Below are positions 16,299 to 23,202 of a stretch of 34,308 nucleotides of DNA, piece by piece (within the stretch, counting starts at the first letter, position 1; each line of letters starts with the position of its first letter). Made by a program: the position numbers and the translations under genes. This stretch comes from Acidobacteriota bacterium (GTDB lineage: Bacteria > Actinomycetota > Thermoleophilia > Gaiellales > Gaiellaceae). The DNA is taken from NCBI GenBank assembly GCA_028876365.1, contig JAGWRZ010000073.1, positions 1 to 34,308 of the forward strand, in the 5' to 3' direction. The notes below the pieces were generated by a model that was not told the origin of the DNA, did no database searches, and saw nothing but the letters and a program-made list of their open reading frames with translations.

Positions 16299-16694
16299 TC
16301 AGGAAGGCTCGACCCGTTGGACGGTCGTGAGGCGGTCGATCTCTCGATCGAACGACGCGATCGTCCCTACCCCACTCGCCTCCGCGCTCGCGACGAGGTA
16401 TGCCTCTGCGAAGTCGAGGCGCTCGACCTCATAGACCTCGAGGGCGCGGAGGAGCAGAGGTTCGTCAACGACGGCAACCGCAGGAAATCCGATGATCGCC
16501 CGCGCAAGTTCCGCGACTCGTTGCCGCTCGACCTCGTAGAAGGACTCGAGGACGTAGACGACCTCTGCGACGATCAGGTCGGTCAGGAGGAGCTCGCTCG
16601 CTCTCCTGAGGTAGGCGGTCGCGCGGCGGGCCTGAGCCGGCGGGTCGCCCGTCAAGTGCCGAATCAGGACGTTTGTGTCGAGGAACGCGCTCAG
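16299..16694 (-). CDS. PIN-domain ribonuclease toxin (VapC-like), CTG start
   Basis: The 131-aa protein reads (M)SAFLDTNVLIRHLTGDPP, then LIVAEVVYVLESFY, then LDFAEAYLVASAE, then FDREIDRL. These supply the usual PIN acidic residues for Mg-dependent RNA cleavage. The ORF track begins 13 residues too late, at TTG, and loses the first Asp. No ATG, GTG or TTG exists in frame upstream before a stop. CTG at 16694, which overlaps the antitoxin TGA as CTGA, is the only start that keeps the domain. The gene follows an AbrB-type antitoxin gene, so expression is probably coupled and autorepressed. Confidence 0.8.
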   Translation of the reverse strand: MSAFLDTNVLIRHLTGDPPAQARRATAYLRRASELLLTDLIVAEVVYVLESFYEVERQRVAELARAIIGFPAVAVVDEPLLLRALEVYEVERLDFAEAYLVASAEASGVGTIASFDREIDRLTTVQRVEPS

Positions 16695-16939
16695 GCGCGA
16701 GTCTGTGTCCGGGCCTCGCGCGTGCGACGCCTGATCTCAGGCCAAGGGGTTCCGCGCTTCTGCGCAGGCACTGGAACGGTGCCGGCGAGGTCGAGTAGCT
16801 TCGGGGTGCGAGCGAGCAGTGCACGCCGACCTTCGATGCGGAAGACCACTTGGTCGCCCTCCGCGAGGCCGAGTGCGTCGCGCACGGCCTTCGGAATAGT
16901 CAGCTGGCCCTTCGACGACAACTGCGCGGACACGTCCAT
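16691..16939 (-). CDS. AbrB/SpoVT-type antitoxin (VapB-like)
   Basis: The 82-aa protein has an N-terminal swapped-hairpin AbrB motif, VSAQLSSKGQLTIPKAVRDALGLAEGDQVVFRIEG (about residues 3-37). A basic C-terminal tail probably wraps the PIN toxin. AAGGAGG precedes the ATG. A 26-bp imperfect palindrome covers the leader and Shine-Dalgarno, consistent with autoregulation. It lies just outside the attachment repeat of the ssrA element. In the element-free chromosome this pair would lie directly downstream of ssrA. Confidence 0.9.
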   Translation of the reverse strand: MDVSAQLSSKGQLTIPKAVRDALGLAEGDQVVFRIEGRRALLARTPKLLDLAGTVPVPAQKRGTPWPEIRRRTREARTQTRA

Positions 16940-16946
16940 TCCGGCC

Positions 16947-16972
16947 TCCTTACCTTTCCGGATAAGTAAGGA
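16947..16972 (-). promoter_or_regulatory. Palindromic operator over the antitoxin leader
   Basis: The inverted arms TCCTTAC and GTAAGGA flank a central TCCGGA palindrome (26 bp in all). The proximal arm includes part of the AAGGAGG ribosome site. It is a likely target of the AbrB-PIN complex. Confidence 0.55.
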
Positions 16973-17012
16973 TAGCGGAACCGCCGGACGGTTCGTCTTG
17001 ATCCAACTCCAG

Positions 17013-17041
17013 TGGAGGCGGCAGGAATCGAACCCGCGTCC
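17013..17041. repeat. Distal attachment repeat: displaced tmRNA 3' end
   Basis: This 29-bp copy of the ssrA T-arm and acceptor 3' strand differs from 22821-22849 by a single base (position 11, a versus g). It is the end of the integrated element farthest from ssrA. Confidence 0.9.
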
Positions 17042-17221
17042 AGCGAGTCGGGTGAGGATTCAGAAGGGGAATCAGACTTAGCCGGCCCTGACGCGGGGCG
17101 AAACGCGTCGGATGGAAGTCACGAAGTAGCTCCGATGAGCGACGACCCGCGTTCGCAGCGCGGGCCGTCGGAAGAACCGGCGACTCCGCCTGGCGGTGCA
17201 GGCGATGATCCGTCGGGCTGA
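17042..17221 (+). other. Alternative int C-terminal tail (used only in the excised circle)
   Basis: The int frame keeps the same phase in both attachment repeats. From this repeat it stays open for 59 further codons to the TGA at 17219-17221, beginning SESGEDSEGE and rich in acidic residues, Ser, Gly and Pro. In the chromosome the stretch has no start of its own beyond a GTG inside the repeat. After excision it would replace the 10 chromosomal tail residues of the integrase and run into the first codons of rep. Confidence 0.6.
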
Positions 17222-18284
17222 GCTTACTGCGCCCGACCAGGGCGTGCTCTTCGCGGTTGATCCGTACCGCAAGCAGCGGGAGGATCCTCGGGAGCCACCT
17301 GTTGGGCGCCCGAAGTACCGGCACCAGCACTCCGCCGAGGAGCTCGCTCAGTTCGAGCGAACTCTGGCGGTGCTGCAGCAGATTCGGCCTGACCCGGATC
17401 GGCGTCTGTGTCCCGGCTGCTTCAAGTCGATCCCTCTGCAGGCGCGAACGTGCGGGCGGCGTTGGTGTGATGCGGTGAGGCCGACGTGGGGTCGGCGTGT
17501 TGGCGAGATCGTGCGGGCAGCGTTGGACGCGTATTGCGGGCTCCACGACGGCAACGGGCGGGTGCTGGCGACGGTGCTGACGTGCACCCACGAGCGGGGA
17601 TGGTGGGACACGGACCAGTGCGGTCACCCCTCCGATGGGTCGCGGTGTTCGGGTCCGGCCGGCTGTCGGGTGCGGCCGGAGATCGAGGAGCGGGAACGGC
17701 GGCTCTTCCCGGAACGGTCGCGGGCGGCGAAGAAGATGGCGCGCACCGAGGCGTTCCGGAAGATGCGAAAGGCCGGCTACAAGGTCAGCAAGGAACAGGC
17801 GAAGCGGCTCGGCGTCCTAATGTCGGTTATCGAGGACCAACAGCGCGGCGTCCCGCACGAGCACGTCGTCTGCCCGCACACAACGGCCCTTGAGATTGCC
17901 TTTACGCGGGCGTTCTTCGATGCTCTCCCCCGCGCCGCTCGCCATCACGGACTCGGCTACGTCGACCGCTACCAGCACGTCGTCGGGCGGCAAGGTCGAC
18001 ACGAGGCGCAGAAGTTTCACGGCTACCTCGGAAAGCTCGCCCGGTATCTCGCGAAGTCATCGTCGGCCGGCGAGTTCTTGCAGAAGCACCACGGCGAACG
18101 CGTCTACTACGTCGCACCGTGGCTCAGCAAGCTCTCCGGGGTGACGATGACGATTGCGCGGCTCTGTGGGCAGGTGTGGGCGGCAAGGCGCGGCTACTGC
18201 GATTTCCCAAAGATCCCGGAGCGGCTATTGCCCACGGTGGAGCGGCTCGTGGGGCCGTTGGTTGCGGCTCCCTCGGCTCCATGA
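17196..18284 (+). CDS. Rolling-circle replication initiator-like protein (HUH)
   Basis: The 362-aa protein has a Cys cluster LCPGCFKSI...CGRRWC (Cys72, 75, 86 and 91), then a second Cys/His-rich stretch (about residues 130-157). The candidate HUH motif is RGVPHEHVVCP (His221 and His223). YLGKLARYLAKSSS (candidate catalytic Tyr284 with Lys287) follows, in the order and spacing of RCR Rep proteins. It probably nicks and joins DNA to replicate the excised circle. The start is GTG 17196 or ATG 17205. Both lie inside the read-through tail of int, so in the circle rep would be translationally coupled to int. The family assignment rests on motifs only. Confidence 0.6.
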   Translation: MQAMIRRAELTAPDQGVLFAVDPYRKQREDPREPPVGRPKYRHQHSAEELAQFERTLAVLQQIRPDPDRRLCPGCFKSIPLQARTCGRRWCDAVRPTWGRRVGEIVRAALDAYCGLHDGNGRVLATVLTCTHERGWWDTDQCGHPSDGSRCSGPAGCRVRPEIEERERRLFPERSRAAKKMARTEAFRKMRKAGYKVSKEQAKRLGVLMSVIEDQQRGVPHEHVVCPHTTALEIAFTRAFFDALPRAARHHGLGYVDRYQHVVGRQGRHEAQKFHGYLGKLARYLAKSSSAGEFLQKHHGERVYYVAPWLSKLSGVTMTIARLCGQVWAARRGYCDFPKIPERLLPTVERLVGPLVAAPSAP

Positions 18285-18374
18285 GGCGGCGTCGGGGGGC
18301 ACAGGCGCCCATCTGCCGGCAGGCAGAGGGCGCCGGGGCCCCGAGGAGGCTCAGGCGCCGACTCCCGCGGCTCT

Positions 18375-18983
18375 ATGCATCGCCCAGTCGTGGTCCATCA
18401 TTTGCTCGTGGTCTCTTGGACCCGGATCGCGCTATCGCTCGGGATCGTCGCCGGCCTGGCCGGGGGCGGATCCGGCCCCGCGGTAGCGAGACACGCGGAT
18501 CCTCCGGTGTTTGTCCCGTGGTACCGCGTCGGGGACATTTCGCTCGGAGAAGCGAGCGCGAAGGTGGAAGCGGAGTATGGGGGCATAGGACACGGCTTCA
18601 AAGTGATTCAACGGTGGCCCGGAAGCGTGCAGGGGCAGTACGAGCTCCACGGCAGCGAGGTCCTGGTGACGTTCACCAACCGCGTTGTAAACGACATCGA
18701 CTTCGTAACGCCGTACTACCGCACGTCCAGCGGCCTCGGCATCGGCAGCACGATCCCGCTCGGTCCGTGTTATCCGGTGGCCGGCGGAGGGTGCGAACAT
18801 CGATGGCGCGGCTTCGTGTTCTATCCGCGCTGGAAAGACTCCCGCTGCAACTGCTGGGTCAAGGCCGGCGCTCTCGGCGGGCTGGCACCCACCCCGCGGA
18901 ACTTCCTGCACCCGTGGTTCTTCATCTTCACGAAGAACGGACGAGCGGAAGAGATCTACCTCTCACGGAGCTACACCGATTGA
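18375..18983 (+). CDS. Exported protein of unknown function (element cargo)
   Basis: The 202-aa ORF has a hydrophobic signal segment (WTRIALSLGIVAGLAGGGSGPAVARHA). The probable start is ATG 18375 or an in-frame GTG nearer 18411. The mature part has WYRVGDISLGEASAKVEAEYG, YYRTSSGLGIGSTIPLGPC, four or more Cys and a final FIFTKNGRAEEIYL. The pattern of a G-x-s-x-x-x-V helix followed by beta strands recalls the BamE/SmpA or BLIP-like fold, but that is inference. It is followed 10 nt later by a second exported unknown protein. Confidence 0.6.
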   Translation: MHRPVVVHHLLVVSWTRIALSLGIVAGLAGGGSGPAVARHADPPVFVPWYRVGDISLGEASAKVEAEYGGIGHGFKVIQRWPGSVQGQYELHGSEVLVTFTNRVVNDIDFVTPYYRTSSGLGIGSTIPLGPCYPVAGGGCEHRWRGFVFYPRWKDSRCNCWVKAGALGGLAPTPRNFLHPWFFIFTKNGRAEEIYLSRSYTD

Positions 18984-18993
18984 GGTTCTGCCT

Positions 18994-19458
18994 TTGAGAA
19001 TCCGTCGCCTTCTCATGCTGCAGGTGCTCGGGCTGGCTATCGGAGCCGCGTGGGTCGGGCTCGCCGTGGCAGAGGTACCGGGCAATGGGCCTCACGTCGC
19101 GGTTCGTCCGATTGGAGCGAACGTTCCGACACTGCGCGGCGCGGCGGCCTTAGCGACGCTCGTTGCGCTAGATCCGAAGAGCGGTGAGGCGGAGTTCCGC
19201 GTCGGCTGCGGCTGGTACTACAAGCCCAAGCGTCGCGTCCGGCTCGGACTCTGGAAGGTTCCGCTTCGTGGCGCGAGCTTCAACCTTGAGTCGTACCCCA
19301 ACGGGCCGGCGTCGGGGATCGCGCACTCAGTGTCGATCACGACGTGGGAAAGGCAGGTGCTCTTGCACGGCTGGTCCGGAACGCTCTGGTTCGGTCCCGG
19401 TCGCCCGTACATCTCAAACGGACCAACCACAGACATATGCGGCGGCGTGCTCGGCTGA
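18994..19458 (+). CDS. Exported or membrane-anchored unknown protein (element cargo)
   Basis: The 154-aa protein starts at TTG with GAGG about 13 nt upstream. The N-terminal helix MRIRRLLMLQVLGLAIGAAWVGLAVA is a signal peptide or anchor. The rest has two Cys (RVGCGWYY and TDICGG), a basic KPKRRVRLG patch and several predicted beta strands. I recognise no family. It lies in tandem with the 202-aa exported protein, so the two may act together at the cell surface. Confidence 0.55.
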   Translation: MRIRRLLMLQVLGLAIGAAWVGLAVAEVPGNGPHVAVRPIGANVPTLRGAAALATLVALDPKSGEAEFRVGCGWYYKPKRRVRLGLWKVPLRGASFNLESYPNGPASGIAHSVSITTWERQVLLHGWSGTLWFGPGRPYISNGPTTDICGGVLG

Positions 19459-19590
19459 CTTGAAAGCCTTTTAGGCAGAGCGTTCACAAACCCCAGGTCC
19501 GATGCTTGACCTTGCAGGCCGACAGTTGACGGCGGGCGTTAGGACTCGCTAAGCGTCGGGATCGCGTGGATCCCACCAGTGAGTCGGTAG
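19459..19590. other. Gap between convergent cargo genes
   Basis: These 132 bp separate the exported-protein genes (plus) from the Ntn-hydrolase pair (minus). I see no RNA gene, no convincing terminator and no repeat. Confidence 0.4.
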
Positions 19591-19788
19591 CTACTTGCCG
19601 GAGAGAGGGGCAACTTGGCGCGCGAAGCGGTCTAGCGGATCGTTCGCTACGGGCGGCCCTTCGCCAGCACCCTCGTCGCCGTTGTCGGGAATCCCGCCGT
19701 CGAGGTAGTCGAGCACGGGATCAGGCTCCGGGTAATAGAGGCGCCGGAACTCGTCAACGGAATGCACTGTTTGAGCTTTAGTGGCCAT
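19591..19788 (-). CDS. Small acidic protein paired with the Ntn hydrolase
   Basis: The 65-aa protein (MATKAQTVHSVDEFRRLYYPE...) is strongly acidic in its middle (DGGIPDNGDEGAGEG) and lacks Cys and membrane segments. A GAGGAG site precedes the ATG, which lies 16 nt after the stop of the Ntn-hydrolase gene, so the two form an operon. No family is recognised. It could be an inhibitor, immunity protein, adaptor or substrate of the hydrolase. Those are hypotheses from gene order only. Confidence 0.6.
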   Translation of the reverse strand: MATKAQTVHSVDEFRRLYYPEPDPVLDYLDGGIPDNGDEGAGEGPPVANDPLDRFARQVAPLSGK

Positions 19789-19804
19789 TGGTGCTCCTCA
19801 TAGT

Positions 19805-21103
19805 CTAGGCGAAATACTTGGCCAGGACGCGTGGGTTTTGATCGAGCGCATAGTAATTCTTCCGCTTGATCCAGATGAATCCGTCGCCCTTCGAGATGAC
19901 GGCGACGTCTACGGGGCCGCCGACGGTCTCGACACTCATTGAGACCTTCTGTCGGAACGAGGTGAGGTTCACGAGCGTTTCGGCCATCACGGCGAGGTCC
20001 TCGATGGGCAGCGCGGACACCACGTTTACAACGGGAGCGACGAACTGATCGGTTCGAAACTGTCCGAGCTCGACTAGCGTCTGCTCGTAAAGCTCGAGCG
20101 TAGCGTTGAAGAGGTCGTCCTTCAACTTCTTGCGACGCGCAGCGGAAAGCGTGGAAGGGGCGACGCTGTCGAGCACTTCCTGCGGCAGTTCGACTACCCG
20201 ATGGTGGAGGATCTCCTCGATCTTGTTGCGATACCTTGGCTGGACGCCTTCCATGAATGCGTACACGTCGTCGCCTTGAGCAAAGGCACGCACCGAGGCT
20301 GTGTTGTCGCGTGTGATGCGGGTTGGGTCGCCTTCCAGGAGAACGAGGTAGTTGAGCGCGAATCCTTCAATCCGGAGTTGGTGCAGGGTCGGGAACATGT
20401 CGTCTTCCCCGAACCCTGTGACGACGATGCCCGAGTGGCCATCCATCAGCCACTCGCGTTCGAATAGGAGATGACCGATGGTGGTGAGGCGGCGGGATTG
20501 CGCGGGCGTCAGGGGCATCTTCTGAAAGACCCGCTGCTTCGCCTGACGCATCTCAGTGCGGTATTCCGCGCTGAACCTCCGTCGGAAGTCCCGAGGTAGC
20601 CGCTTAAGGCGCGGTTGGCGGTTGAGGCCGTTCTGCCAGGCGTCGAGAACTTCCGTTATCACCTTTCGCTGCTCAGCCGGCGTCAGTTGTGTCTTCGGGG
20701 AGTTGGCGAGGGCCTCCTTTACTGATCCCTCGATGTCGCCGCGTAAGTCGAGGTATTCGAGGACGAGCTTGGCGTAGACATAGATGTGCTGCTCCCGGGG
20801 TGGATAGAGGGTCCGCTGGGCTCTCAGATAACGCAGGAAGGTGGTGCGGTAGTCAGCCAGCGTCGAATGTGGTGTCGTTGGGAGTGACTGCGCGAATCCC
20901 TTGATGATCGTCTCCCAGGGGAGGCGATGCAGTGACGTCGACCCGTACATCATCAGTGCGACCGAATGGGGGGCGGGCATGGCAAAGATCTTCGTGACCG
21001 TGGGCCACGCTTTCCGGCTCCCACGCGCCGTCGTGACAGTGACGGCGGAATCCGCGGCGAGCGCGACCGCCTGGCGATTCATGACGGTGACTTCTGCTGT
21101 CAT
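19805..21103 (-). CDS. Proteasome beta/HslV-like Ntn hydrolase, 432 aa
   Basis: The N-terminus MTAEVTVMNRQAVALAADSAVTV aligns by eye with HslV and proteasome beta subunits. Removing the initiator Met exposes Thr1. Asp falls exactly at mature position 17, and TKIFAM supplies a Lys at mature position 37, near the family Lys33 after a short insertion. MMYGSTSLHRLPWETIIKGF follows where the beta fold continues. The protein is roughly twice the length of HslV. Its middle (about residues 80-200) is helical and charged, and the C-terminus returns to a beta-like DVAVISKGDGFIWIKRKNYYAL. This suggests an N-terminal threonine protease with a large insertion or extra domain. No partner ATPase is encoded nearby. 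ATG 21103 lacks a Shine-Dalgarno and places Thr second. Confidence 0.65.
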   Translation of the reverse strand: MTAEVTVMNRQAVALAADSAVTVTTARGSRKAWPTVTKIFAMPAPHSVALMMYGSTSLHRLPWETIIKGFAQSLPTTPHSTLADYRTTFLRYLRAQRTLYPPREQHIYVYAKLVLEYLDLRGDIEGSVKEALANSPKTQLTPAEQRKVITEVLDAWQNGLNRQPRLKRLPRDFRRRFSAEYRTEMRQAKQRVFQKMPLTPAQSRRLTTIGHLLFEREWLMDGHSGIVVTGFGEDDMFPTLHQLRIEGFALNYLVLLEGDPTRITRDNTASVRAFAQGDDVYAFMEGVQPRYRNKIEEILHHRVVELPQEVLDSVAPSTLSAARRKKLKDDLFNATLELYEQTLVELGQFRTDQFVAPVVNVVSALPIEDLAVMAETLVNLTSFRQKVSMSVETVGGPVDVAVISKGDGFIWIKRKNYYALDQNPRVLAKYFA

Positions 21104-21225
21104 GGACGGAATGTCGGGGGTTCGTCAACGGAAGTCAAGGAGGCGCCTGGGCTGTGCGACCACGCCTTCCTGCCTTTGGGGCGGGGATTACCAGGCTGCC
21201 ACCGCCGGGCGGAGCTAGCGGATCC

Positions 21226-21552
21226 ATGCGGGCGCGGATCGTTAGTTATGAGGGCCTTGGCTTGGTGGTGAAGAAGAGTCTGGGGCATCGGTTCACGATC
21301 GCATATGGCGAGATCCTGACCGTCGAGCGGCTGCCCTCAGTATGGGGTCTCCGGTTGCATACGCGGACGACCGGCGGGGTGCGCATCCCGTGTCGTGGCG
21401 AGACGCGGCTCACGATTGAGACGGAGCTCAGACGTAGGGGTGTACGGGTCGTAGATGAGTACGGAGCGATCATCGCACCAACGCTCGCCGAGTTTGAAGA
21501 AGAACTAGCGCGAGCGCCCGATTCTGTGGGACAATCGTCCGACGATGCCTGA
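21226..21552 (+). CDS. Small unknown protein, possible PH-like fold
   Basis: The 108-aa protein is called from ATG 21226, with GGAG upstream. The longer track ORF adds an unlikely Pro/Gly-rich lead. RARIVSYEGLGLVVKKSLGHRFTIAYGEILTVERLPSVWGLRLHTR alternates like the strands of a bacterial PH domain and ends in an amphipathic helix (LAEFEEELARA). It overlaps the HTH gene by 8 bp, so it is the first gene of a PH-xis-int operon. Its function is unknown. Confidence 0.55.
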   Translation: MRARIVSYEGLGLVVKKSLGHRFTIAYGEILTVERLPSVWGLRLHTRTTGGVRIPCRGETRLTIETELRRRGVRVVDEYGAIIAPTLAEFEEELARAPDSVGQSSDDA

Positions 21553-21823
21553 AGCGAACCGCGAGGCCGGCGATCCAAAGCTGATCGCCTTGTTCGACAA
21601 GTATGGAGGTCGGCTCGTTTCCCCCGGCGGGGCTGCTGGCCTTCTCGGTCTTTCGCGCCAGACAATCCATACGCTCTGTAAGCGAGGGGAGCTCCGAGCC
21701 TTTCGGAGTGATGAAGAAGAGCGCGGTGGTCCGCACTGGGTCTACATCCCGCTGGACGACATCTACTCCTACGGGGACAAGGTCGGCCGGCCGGTTCGCG
21801 GGCGACGTCAGCGCAGCGCTTGA
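21545..21823 (+). CDS. HTH DNA-binding protein, probable excisionase
   Basis: The 92-aa protein has a MerR/Xis-type helix-turn-helix, LVSPGGAAGLLGLSRQTIHTLCKRGELRAFRSD (about residues 24-56). A wing and a basic tail RPVRGRRQRSA follow. It lies 33 nt upstream of int, the usual position of a recombination directionality factor. A role as transcriptional regulator of int is also possible. Confidence 0.75.
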   Translation: MPEANREAGDPKLIALFDKYGGRLVSPGGAAGLLGLSRQTIHTLCKRGELRAFRSDEEERGGPHWVYIPLDDIYSYGDKVGRPVRGRRQRSA

Positions 21824-21856
21824 CGCTGTCAGACAATCGTACTACGCTTTCTCAGC

Positions 21857-22882
21857 ATGAGAATCGAGAGGGCGATCGACGCGTATCTTGATTGGCGGCG
21901 GCTTGAACGGGACGCTACTCCGCGTTCGATCGACTCGTATCGGCGGATTCTTTGGAAGCTCGCGGAGGACTACCCCGAGGCTGAGCTTGGCAGGCTGACG
22001 ACGGCGGACCTCCGGTCGTTCCTTAAGCGCTGGGAGAGCATGAGCTCGGCGACCCGGGCGAACGTCGTGTCGGTTCTGCATTCGTTCTTCGACTGGGCCA
22101 ACGTCGAGGACGTGATCGATTCGGATCCGTCCGCGAAGATCCGTCGGCCGAGAAAGCGACGGCCCGACGTGTACCGGCCGAGCCTCGCAGAGCTCGAACT
22201 GCTTCGCGCGGCAGCTCTCCCTCACGAACGTCCGGCAATCGTTCTCATGGAGGGCGCCGGTTTGCGAAGCGCCGAGGTTCGCTCGTGTCGGTGGGCTGAC
22301 TTCGACATGGTGCGCGGGCGGCTGCGCGTGTTTCGGAAAGGCCAGCATTGGTTCTACCTCCCGCTCGCGCCCGACGTCATCGCCGAACTGCGGGAATCCT
22401 TCAAACGACTACGGCCCGAGCTTGACGACCACGTGTTCGCGGTCGAGGTCGAGCAGTGGGTCTCGCAGTACGAGCGTGTGCGCCGACTGAAGAATCCGAA
22501 AGAGCCAGCGAGCTCGCAGGCGCTCTGGCGCATGGTCGCGCGCGTCTGTCGGCGCGCCGGCGTGCGCGAGCTCCATCCGCATCAGCTCCGCCACGGCTTC
22601 GCGAATCGGTTCCTCCGAGAGAGCGGCCGGGACGTCGCGGCGCTGCGCTCGCTTCTCGGTCACTCACGGATCGATACGACGCAGCTCTACACGGATGAGA
22701 TCGAGCTAGACGAGCTCGCGCGTTCATTGGCGGAGGCGCTTCGTCTGCGAGAGTTGCAAGCGTCGTCCGAGTGGACAACGCTCGATGAGGCAACCCTCAA
22801 GTACCCTCGAAACCGAGGAATGGAGGCGGCGGGAATCGAACCCGCGTCCGCAGCCGCACCGGCTGAGCATCTACAAGCGTAG
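21857..22882 (+). CDS. int: Tyrosine recombinase (integrase) of the ssrA element
   Basis: The 341-aa protein has an N-terminal SAM-like core-binding domain (residues 1-90) and a catalytic domain. The catalytic residues are Arg137 (GLRSAEVR), Lys161, His242 and Arg245 (HPHQLRHGF), His269 (LLGHSRIDTT) and Tyr278 (QLYTD), so the full set is present. The last 20 or so codons run across the attachment repeat and into ssrA, ending 62 nt inside the tmRNA gene on the opposite strand. int mRNA is therefore antisense to the tmRNA 3' end. Excision would change its C-terminus. Start ATG 21857 has a TACGCT box 8 nt upstream and no Shine-Dalgarno. Confidence 0.93.
   Translation: MRIERAIDAYLDWRRLERDATPRSIDSYRRILWKLAEDYPEAELGRLTTADLRSFLKRWESMSSATRANVVSVLHSFFDWANVEDVIDSDPSAKIRRPRKRRPDVYRPSLAELELLRAAALPHERPAIVLMEGAGLRSAEVRSCRWADFDMVRGRLRVFRKGQHWFYLPLAPDVIAELRESFKRLRPELDDHVFAVEVEQWVSQYERVRRLKNPKEPASSQALWRMVARVCRRAGVRELHPHQLRHGFANRFLRESGRDVAALRSLLGHSRIDTTQLYTDEIELDELARSLAEALRLRELQASSEWTTLDEATLKYPRNRGMEAAGIEPASAAAPAEHLQA
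22821..22849. repeat. Proximal attachment repeat inside the ssrA 3' end
   Basis: These 29 bp encode the T arm and 3' acceptor strand of tmRNA. They match 17013-17041 except for one base. The tmRNA reading is intact here. Confidence 0.9.
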
Positions 22883-23056
22883 GCGGCACTTGGATCTCGC
22901 CCGACGGCCGGAGTGCGCCGTCCTACCGCCGGGCCAGCCATCCTTTCGTGTCGCGCTCCGGGCGATTGGCTCTCCCTCGGCGCCGAGCCCGTTCGTTGGC
23001 GCCGTCCCGAGTCACGGGCCCAACTCGGAAGGGCGTCGCCTTCTAGCTCTTACGAA

Positions 23057-23089
23057 CTAGGCAGCGAGTGCGAGATCACGAGGATTCGC
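23057..23089 (-). other. tmRNA tag reading frame
   Basis: The resume codon GCG (23089-23087) starts the 10-codon tag ANPRDLALAA, followed by TAG. The LAA ending is the ClpXP-type degradation signal. The resume codon position is inferred from the tag length and the usual Ala start. Confidence 0.75.
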
Positions 23090-23202
23090 ATTTGATTGGT
23101 GCCGGTGGATTAACGAGGCCAACCGGCGACCTCGGCTTGCAGCTCATCCGGATGGATCGACCACGTCGAAACCAGGTCGCCCCCGTATGTCACGTCTCCC
23201 CC

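Follow-up and report, generated by a model that had tools for sequence, protein, structure and literature searches.

Several mobile elements are known in which a gene changes when the element enters or leaves the chromosome. In the SSV-type (suicidal) integrases of archaea, the attachment site of the element (attP) lies inside the integrase gene (int), which integration cuts into Int(N) and Int(C), separating off the catalytic domain; a review describes integrases that are split by their own attachment site as exclusive to archaea (PMC8371274). In haloarchaeal pleolipoviruses, a coding sequence (CDS) in which attP is embedded bridges the integrase gene and the next gene (PMC7911831). Mycobacteriophage BPs carries attP inside its repressor gene and shows integration-dependent immunity, in which a C-terminal tag causes degradation (PMC4557955). 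In the integrative and conjugative elements (ICEs) ICEKp1, ICEclc and Tn916, the circle joins a promoter or a transcript across attP (PMC13023037 and its references). Topology-dependent genes are already known, as in the pleolipoviruses, BPs and the split SSV integrases. In this study, we describe a different arrangement in a 5.8-kb integrated element of the window, by which we mean the whole stretch of 34,308 nucleotides analyzed (contig JAGWRZ010000073.1 of assembly GCA_028876365.1, family Gaiellaceae). In this element, int, a conserved tail frame and the replication gene rep lie on the two sides of the attachment site.

We propose that attP splits the 3' end of int in this element, and that excision would assemble xis, int, the tail and rep in one series, coupling rep to excision. 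We give this full explanation a probability of about 0.7.

Results

The element lies between two repeats derived from ssrA, the gene of transfer-messenger RNA (tmRNA), and carries xis, int and a gene for an HUH-type replication initiator (Table 1). The sole mismatch between the two repeats (GCA/GCG) gives Ala in both copies. Since this mismatch is silent in int, the fusion frame does not depend on where within the 29 bp the crossover falls. In the chromosome, the last 10 residues of int past the core (AAAPAEHLQA) are encoded antisense to ssrA. When the element was closed into a virtual circle (22849 joined to 17042), int grew from 341 to 390 aa and ended in a circle-only tail of 59 residues, SESGEDSEGESDLAGPDAGRNASDGSHEVAPMSDDPRSQRGPSEEPATPPGGAGDDPSG, with a net charge of -12 and a TGA stop at 17219-17221. 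This acidic tail is probably disordered. The Phage_integrase match covers int residues 124-280, upstream of the core, and the recombinase domain is whole after integration.

The tail stop sits 14 nt downstream of the rep ATG, and the overlap with the beginning of rep is 17 nt. The first-pass annotation of this DNA had claimed that int keeps the same phase through both repeats, that chromosomal int has 341 aa including 10 ssrA-encoded end residues, that circular int has about 390 aa with a 59-residue acidic tail, and that the tail stop overlaps the rep start (GTG 17196 or ATG 17205) in another frame; each of these values was obtained again on recomputation. Judged by eye, the rep starts of these elements show no clearly strong Shine-Dalgarno sequence. 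On the + strand of the virtual circle, the stretch from xis to rep contained no terminator-like site.

The Rep product carries the motif RGV-(P/W)-H-x-H, which contains the HxH metal motif of HUH proteins, and a catalytic Tyr motif (YLxx), both of which are conserved in three homologs. The window Rep matched REP_ORF2-G2P weakly (E 0.07), and one homolog matched REP_ORF2-G2P at E 6e-6 and RepSA of pSAM2 at E 7e-4, both below the Pfam cut-offs. From these motifs and matches, the product is best read as a rolling-circle initiator. There was no match to rep in plasmid and phage records. One distant rep in the viral collection (L300, 5920-7116) lies on a 15-kb contig with a DNA methylase-like open reading frame (ORF) downstream and neither int nor tail adjoining. 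Just after rep in the window, a very stable hairpin without a T run was found at 18303-18334 (z-score -4.1 on folding of 18285-18370), which is a candidate single-strand origin or terminator.

The open tail, taken alone, was rejected as proof of coding. The frame stayed open in 23% of mononucleotide shuffles (P ~0.23), and in the window, which is GC-rich, roughly half of the phases remain open for 59 codons. The significance of the int tail derives solely from its relatives.

A DNA search with 17013-17420 as query recovered the segment from about 17140 onward in several genomes of the same family, where it adjoins rep homologs. In the window and in G322, G042, G045:C1, G078:C33 and G078:C160, the tail frame encodes DDPRS(Q/K)RG(P/S)S and, after a further 15-16 residues, closes with TGA; the endings are PSG, PAG, PPG or EPG. 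A seventh relative, G005, is decayed and shares the acidic part (81% DNA identity). The rep start, ATG or TTG, precedes the tail stop by 14 nt in five of the six elements and by 11 nt in the sixth. Where the core is known (four elements), no stop interrupts the tail frame from the core to the rep start, and both other frames are stopped in all four. A class sample of 399 yielded the motif pattern in five genomes, all of the window's family; it was also present in four contigs of an 84,980-species collection, matching G078 (two), G042 and G322, and in 0 viral contigs. The rep homologs of G088 and G076 look truncated, with no tail found upstream, and repeats 5.9 kb apart in G033 had no tail motif.

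Conservation of the tail is concentrated toward its end, in DDPRSQRGPS, which overlaps a strong inverted repeat, and the acidic part varies. This hairpin is a possible double-strand origin or RNA hairpin ahead of rep. It might be argued that the whole conserved block is such an element, a double-strand origin or a regulatory hairpin at the DNA or RNA level, and that the open frame is a by-product of GC-rich sequence. The strength of the inverted repeat and the non-significant openness of the tail by itself fit this explanation, and rolling-circle origins often adjoin rep. However, we consider it unlikely, since drift in the block is synonymous specifically in the tail frame, hairpin loop included. 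The ratio of nonsynonymous to synonymous change (pN/pS) is 0.27 in the 10-codon DDPRSQRGPS motif, with the Ser codons TCG, AGT, TCC and TCA interchanged, and in G042 substitutions that leave the tail peptide unchanged weaken the hairpin stem. Moreover, the acidic linker outside the hairpin, though variable in sequence, keeps an open frame and an acidic composition in every element, the overlap of tail stop and rep start is fixed, and the phase of int matches wherever both ends are known, as described below. Because the sample is small and the motif overlaps the hairpin, the synonymous pattern supports coding and also leaves room for a role as DNA or RNA; the two roles could coexist.

The int frame was continuous with the tail frame in all three independent elements in which both ends are known, at ssrA (the window), tRNA-Ala (G078:C160) and tRNA-Thr (G042); a match of phase in three elements is expected by chance in 1/27 of cases. 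The interpretation given in the first-pass annotation was supported in part. Its central claim, that on excision int and a tail overlapping rep become one frame through att, was upheld by these elements, as the frame through att is also conserved with other att cores and with another integrase subfamily. In G078:C160, the whole element is located in tRNA-Ala (TGC). Its integrase belongs to a different subfamily (Phage_integrase E 5e-22), was missed by a profile of the window int, and reads into the tRNA core (..DEPWSVPGSNRRPPACKA..). When joined to the left copy, it continues as ..DSEDSAEGG...DDPRSQRGSS...GPAG and a stop, giving 467 aa as compared with 401 aa in the chromosome. In G042, the tRNA-Thr (CGT) core stands beside the int end on one contig and beside the tail on another, the two copies sharing 43 identical bp and the same phase; we assume that these contigs carry opposite ends of a single element. 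The int of this element (G042:C4, reverse strand 1-1074) is a decayed tyrosine integrase gene with internal stops beside an intact tRNA-Thr (CGT). In the decayed G005, whose target is ssrA, int is also in phase with the tail. In G045:C1 the tail is present and int reads into tRNA-Thr; no circle could be built because rep is broken and no left att copy was found. The contig G078:C33 is without its int end.

It is conceivable that the tail is an independent small gene in front of rep, translated from a start codon of its own and linked to int by accident, as the copies in the window, G045 and G322 have an in-frame ATG or GTG ahead of the motif. However, in the integrated state the tail frame of G078:C160 has no start codon at all and that of G042 has none before the motif, so that a translated tail in these two elements could only come from circular int. 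Together with the phase of int in three of three elements, this makes a separate gene the least probable of the explanations considered here.

Integrases of the same bacterial family, from elements in which no tail-rep module was identified, were also compared. The ints of G045:C10, G082, G058 and G041, which target ssrA, stop 27-53 nt before the core. Those of G068 and G078:C10, also of the ssrA type, read through it. Read-through as a general trait of this integrase family was rejected because four related ints stop before the core; on these comparisons, the in-frame tail belongs to the tail-rep elements and not to the integrase family as a whole. In G078:C10 (1-4205), int adjoins the core on one side, other genes (HNH, DNA methylase) adjoin it on the opposite side and ssrA is absent, so that the core looks like an unintegrated attP. 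The frame of int passes through this core, and its stop codon forms an ATGA overlap with the following ORF. This contig looks like a physical example of int reading across attP and ending on its neighbor, although the element is of a different kind. There were no close relatives of the window int in the genome and viral contig collections. Many of the viral contigs with the ssrA core motif were ssrA or tRNA matches, and the few homologous ints among them stop before the core. The int of G338 lies about 7 kb from ssrA and is uninformative.

Table 1. Features of the integrated element and its target in the window.
Feature	Position	Strand	Remarks
int, tyrosine recombinase, chromosomal form	21857..22882	+	341 aa; end antisense to ssrA; Phage_integrase E 2e-22
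int tail frame	17042..17221	+	int enters it in the circle alone; linker acidic, ending DDPRSQRGPS...PSG conserved, TGA
Inverted repeat (hairpin) within tail frame	17140..17170	+	strong; sequence or pairing kept in six elements
rep, HUH-type rolling-circle initiator (best reading)	17205..18284	+	overlaps tail stop; alternative start GTG 17196; frame differs from tail
Left att core copy	17013..17041	+	element end far from int; 28/29 identical to 22821-22849
Right att core copy	22821..22849	+	ssrA 3' end; int reads through in frame (MEAAGIEPAS)
ssrA (tmRNA), integration target	22821..23184	-	intact
Small ORF	21154..21552	+	end overlaps xis start; likely first gene of xis-int operon
xis-like HTH_17 protein	21545..21823	+	Pfam HTH_17 E 4e-6; PHROG excisionase family E 0.0014

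The small ORF in front of xis had no family match in the profile scans. The element also encodes on the - strand (19805-21103) a cargo protein of unknown function with a full-length match to PHROG 5990 (E 1e-93). The N-terminus of this protein vaguely resembles Ntn-hydrolase (proteasome-like) starts by eye only, and it had no PDB or Pfam match. In the flanking chromosome just outside the left att copy, a pair resembling a PIN-domain toxin and a MazE/AbrB-type antitoxin is encoded at 16299-16939 on the - strand. Judged by eye, the sequence at 16970-17012 is that normally found downstream of ssrA, with a small inverted repeat (AACCG..CGGTT), displaced 5.8 kb by the integration. Owing to this displacement, transcription of ssrA may run antisense into int.

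Discussion

A rolling-circle element should not fire while it is in the chromosome. In the sequence, attP lies within the 3' part of int, and the virtual circle restores to int its conserved ending, which overlaps rep. Integration removes the tail, gives int a short end encoded by ssrA and places the length of the element between rep and the xis-int operon. Under the mechanism that we propose, excision would re-form a single xis-int-tail-rep operon, in which transcription from xis and int would cross attP and ribosomes terminating at the tail stop would restart on rep. Replication would thus be favored only in the excised form, rep being presumably silent when integrated.

Several points weigh against this proposal. 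None of the contigs with a tail-rep element was seen in circular form. The GC content by codon position in the window tail (0.76/0.64/0.59) is not coding-like and is unlike that of the int body (0.69/0.47/0.77). The conserved block also forms a hairpin, and part of its conservation may be at the DNA or RNA level. Just three independent elements have both ends, and one of these, G042, has internal stops in int. The tail of G322, an element known without its int, is in another phase relative to the ssrA core. Finally, the left core of G078:C160 has an in-frame TGA where the right copy has CGA, and its circle would be open only if the crossover falls beyond core position 26. The crossover should not fall between the two bases that differ because these bases pair in the T-stem. 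Crossovers in the anticodon loop are common in actinobacterial phages (PMC10865867), and the core of G078:C160 reaches the anticodon loop. Among intact tRNA-Ala genes of the genus, the TGA form is found in G073, G053 and G033 and the other form in G083. On the simplest reading, the left copy as far as the anticodon loop would come from the chromosome, and the circle would be open.

The two topological states encode two different C-termini, and it is possible that the two integrase ends differ in activity or stability. One could go further and suppose that the long and short ends serve mainly to alter the direction of recombination or the activity or stability of the integrase, with coupling to rep being secondary. 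The BPs repressor, whose attP-dependent C-termini alter protein stability, provides a precedent (PMC4557955). However, the ends in the chromosome come from host sequence and show no relation from one element to another, the acidic linker is variable, and the strongest conservation adjoins and overlaps rep. A switch that acts mainly through the integrase is therefore very unlikely in our judgment.

If the proposed coupling of rep to excision is correct, the position of attP inside int and the overlap of the int stop with rep would block firing in the integrated state without a dedicated regulator, and a gene product would depend on DNA topology. We consider it somewhat better than an even chance that there is a family of bacterial elements in which only excision assembles both full-length int and the translation of rep, and that this topology switch has been kept across different integrases and target RNA genes. 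No description of a bacterial int with a conserved 3' end that crosses attP and overlaps rep was found in the part of the literature covered, which does not prove novelty.

The element resembles pSAM2-like actinomycete integrative and conjugative elements (AICEs) of actinobacteria (PMC3218068) in its integration at the 3' end of a tRNA or tmRNA gene, its xis-int pair and a Rep whose homolog is weakly RepSA-like. It differs in that rep lies at the end opposite int; of the int, rep and FtsK-like tra genes of AICEs, int and rep are present, and no transfer gene was recognized by family matches among the scanned ORFs of the 5.8 kb. As in ICEs, excision would rewire expression across the junction. 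However, in ICEs this concerns transcription of int or transfer genes, and here it would concern a translated frame from int into rep.

In BPs, as here, attP lies within a gene, and the integrated and free forms give different C-termini. The BPs gene encodes a repressor with a degradation tag, whereas here the gene is int, its end overlaps rep and, by eye, the tail endings of these elements are unlike an ssrA-type tag. The arrangement resembles that of pleolipoviruses in that a frame across attP, present in the circle alone, leads from int as far as the following gene on that strand, and its end adjoins or overlaps that gene. The pleolipovirus frame is a separate CDS that starts just downstream of int, the next gene encodes a CxxC protein and the hosts of the arrangement are archaeal viruses. 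Here the frame is int itself, continuous through attP and not a separate CDS, and in two elements the tail frame lacks a start before the motif; the next gene is rep and the element is bacterial.

The element shares with SSV-type integrases an att core within the int frame and the separation of the 3' part of int on integration. In the SSV type, integration separates the catalytic domain and inactivates int. Here the recombinase domain stays whole and the tail alone is lost, and we do not class this int as a member of the SSV type. If our reading is correct, integrases split by their own attachment site would also occur in bacteria, with the recombinase domain left intact.

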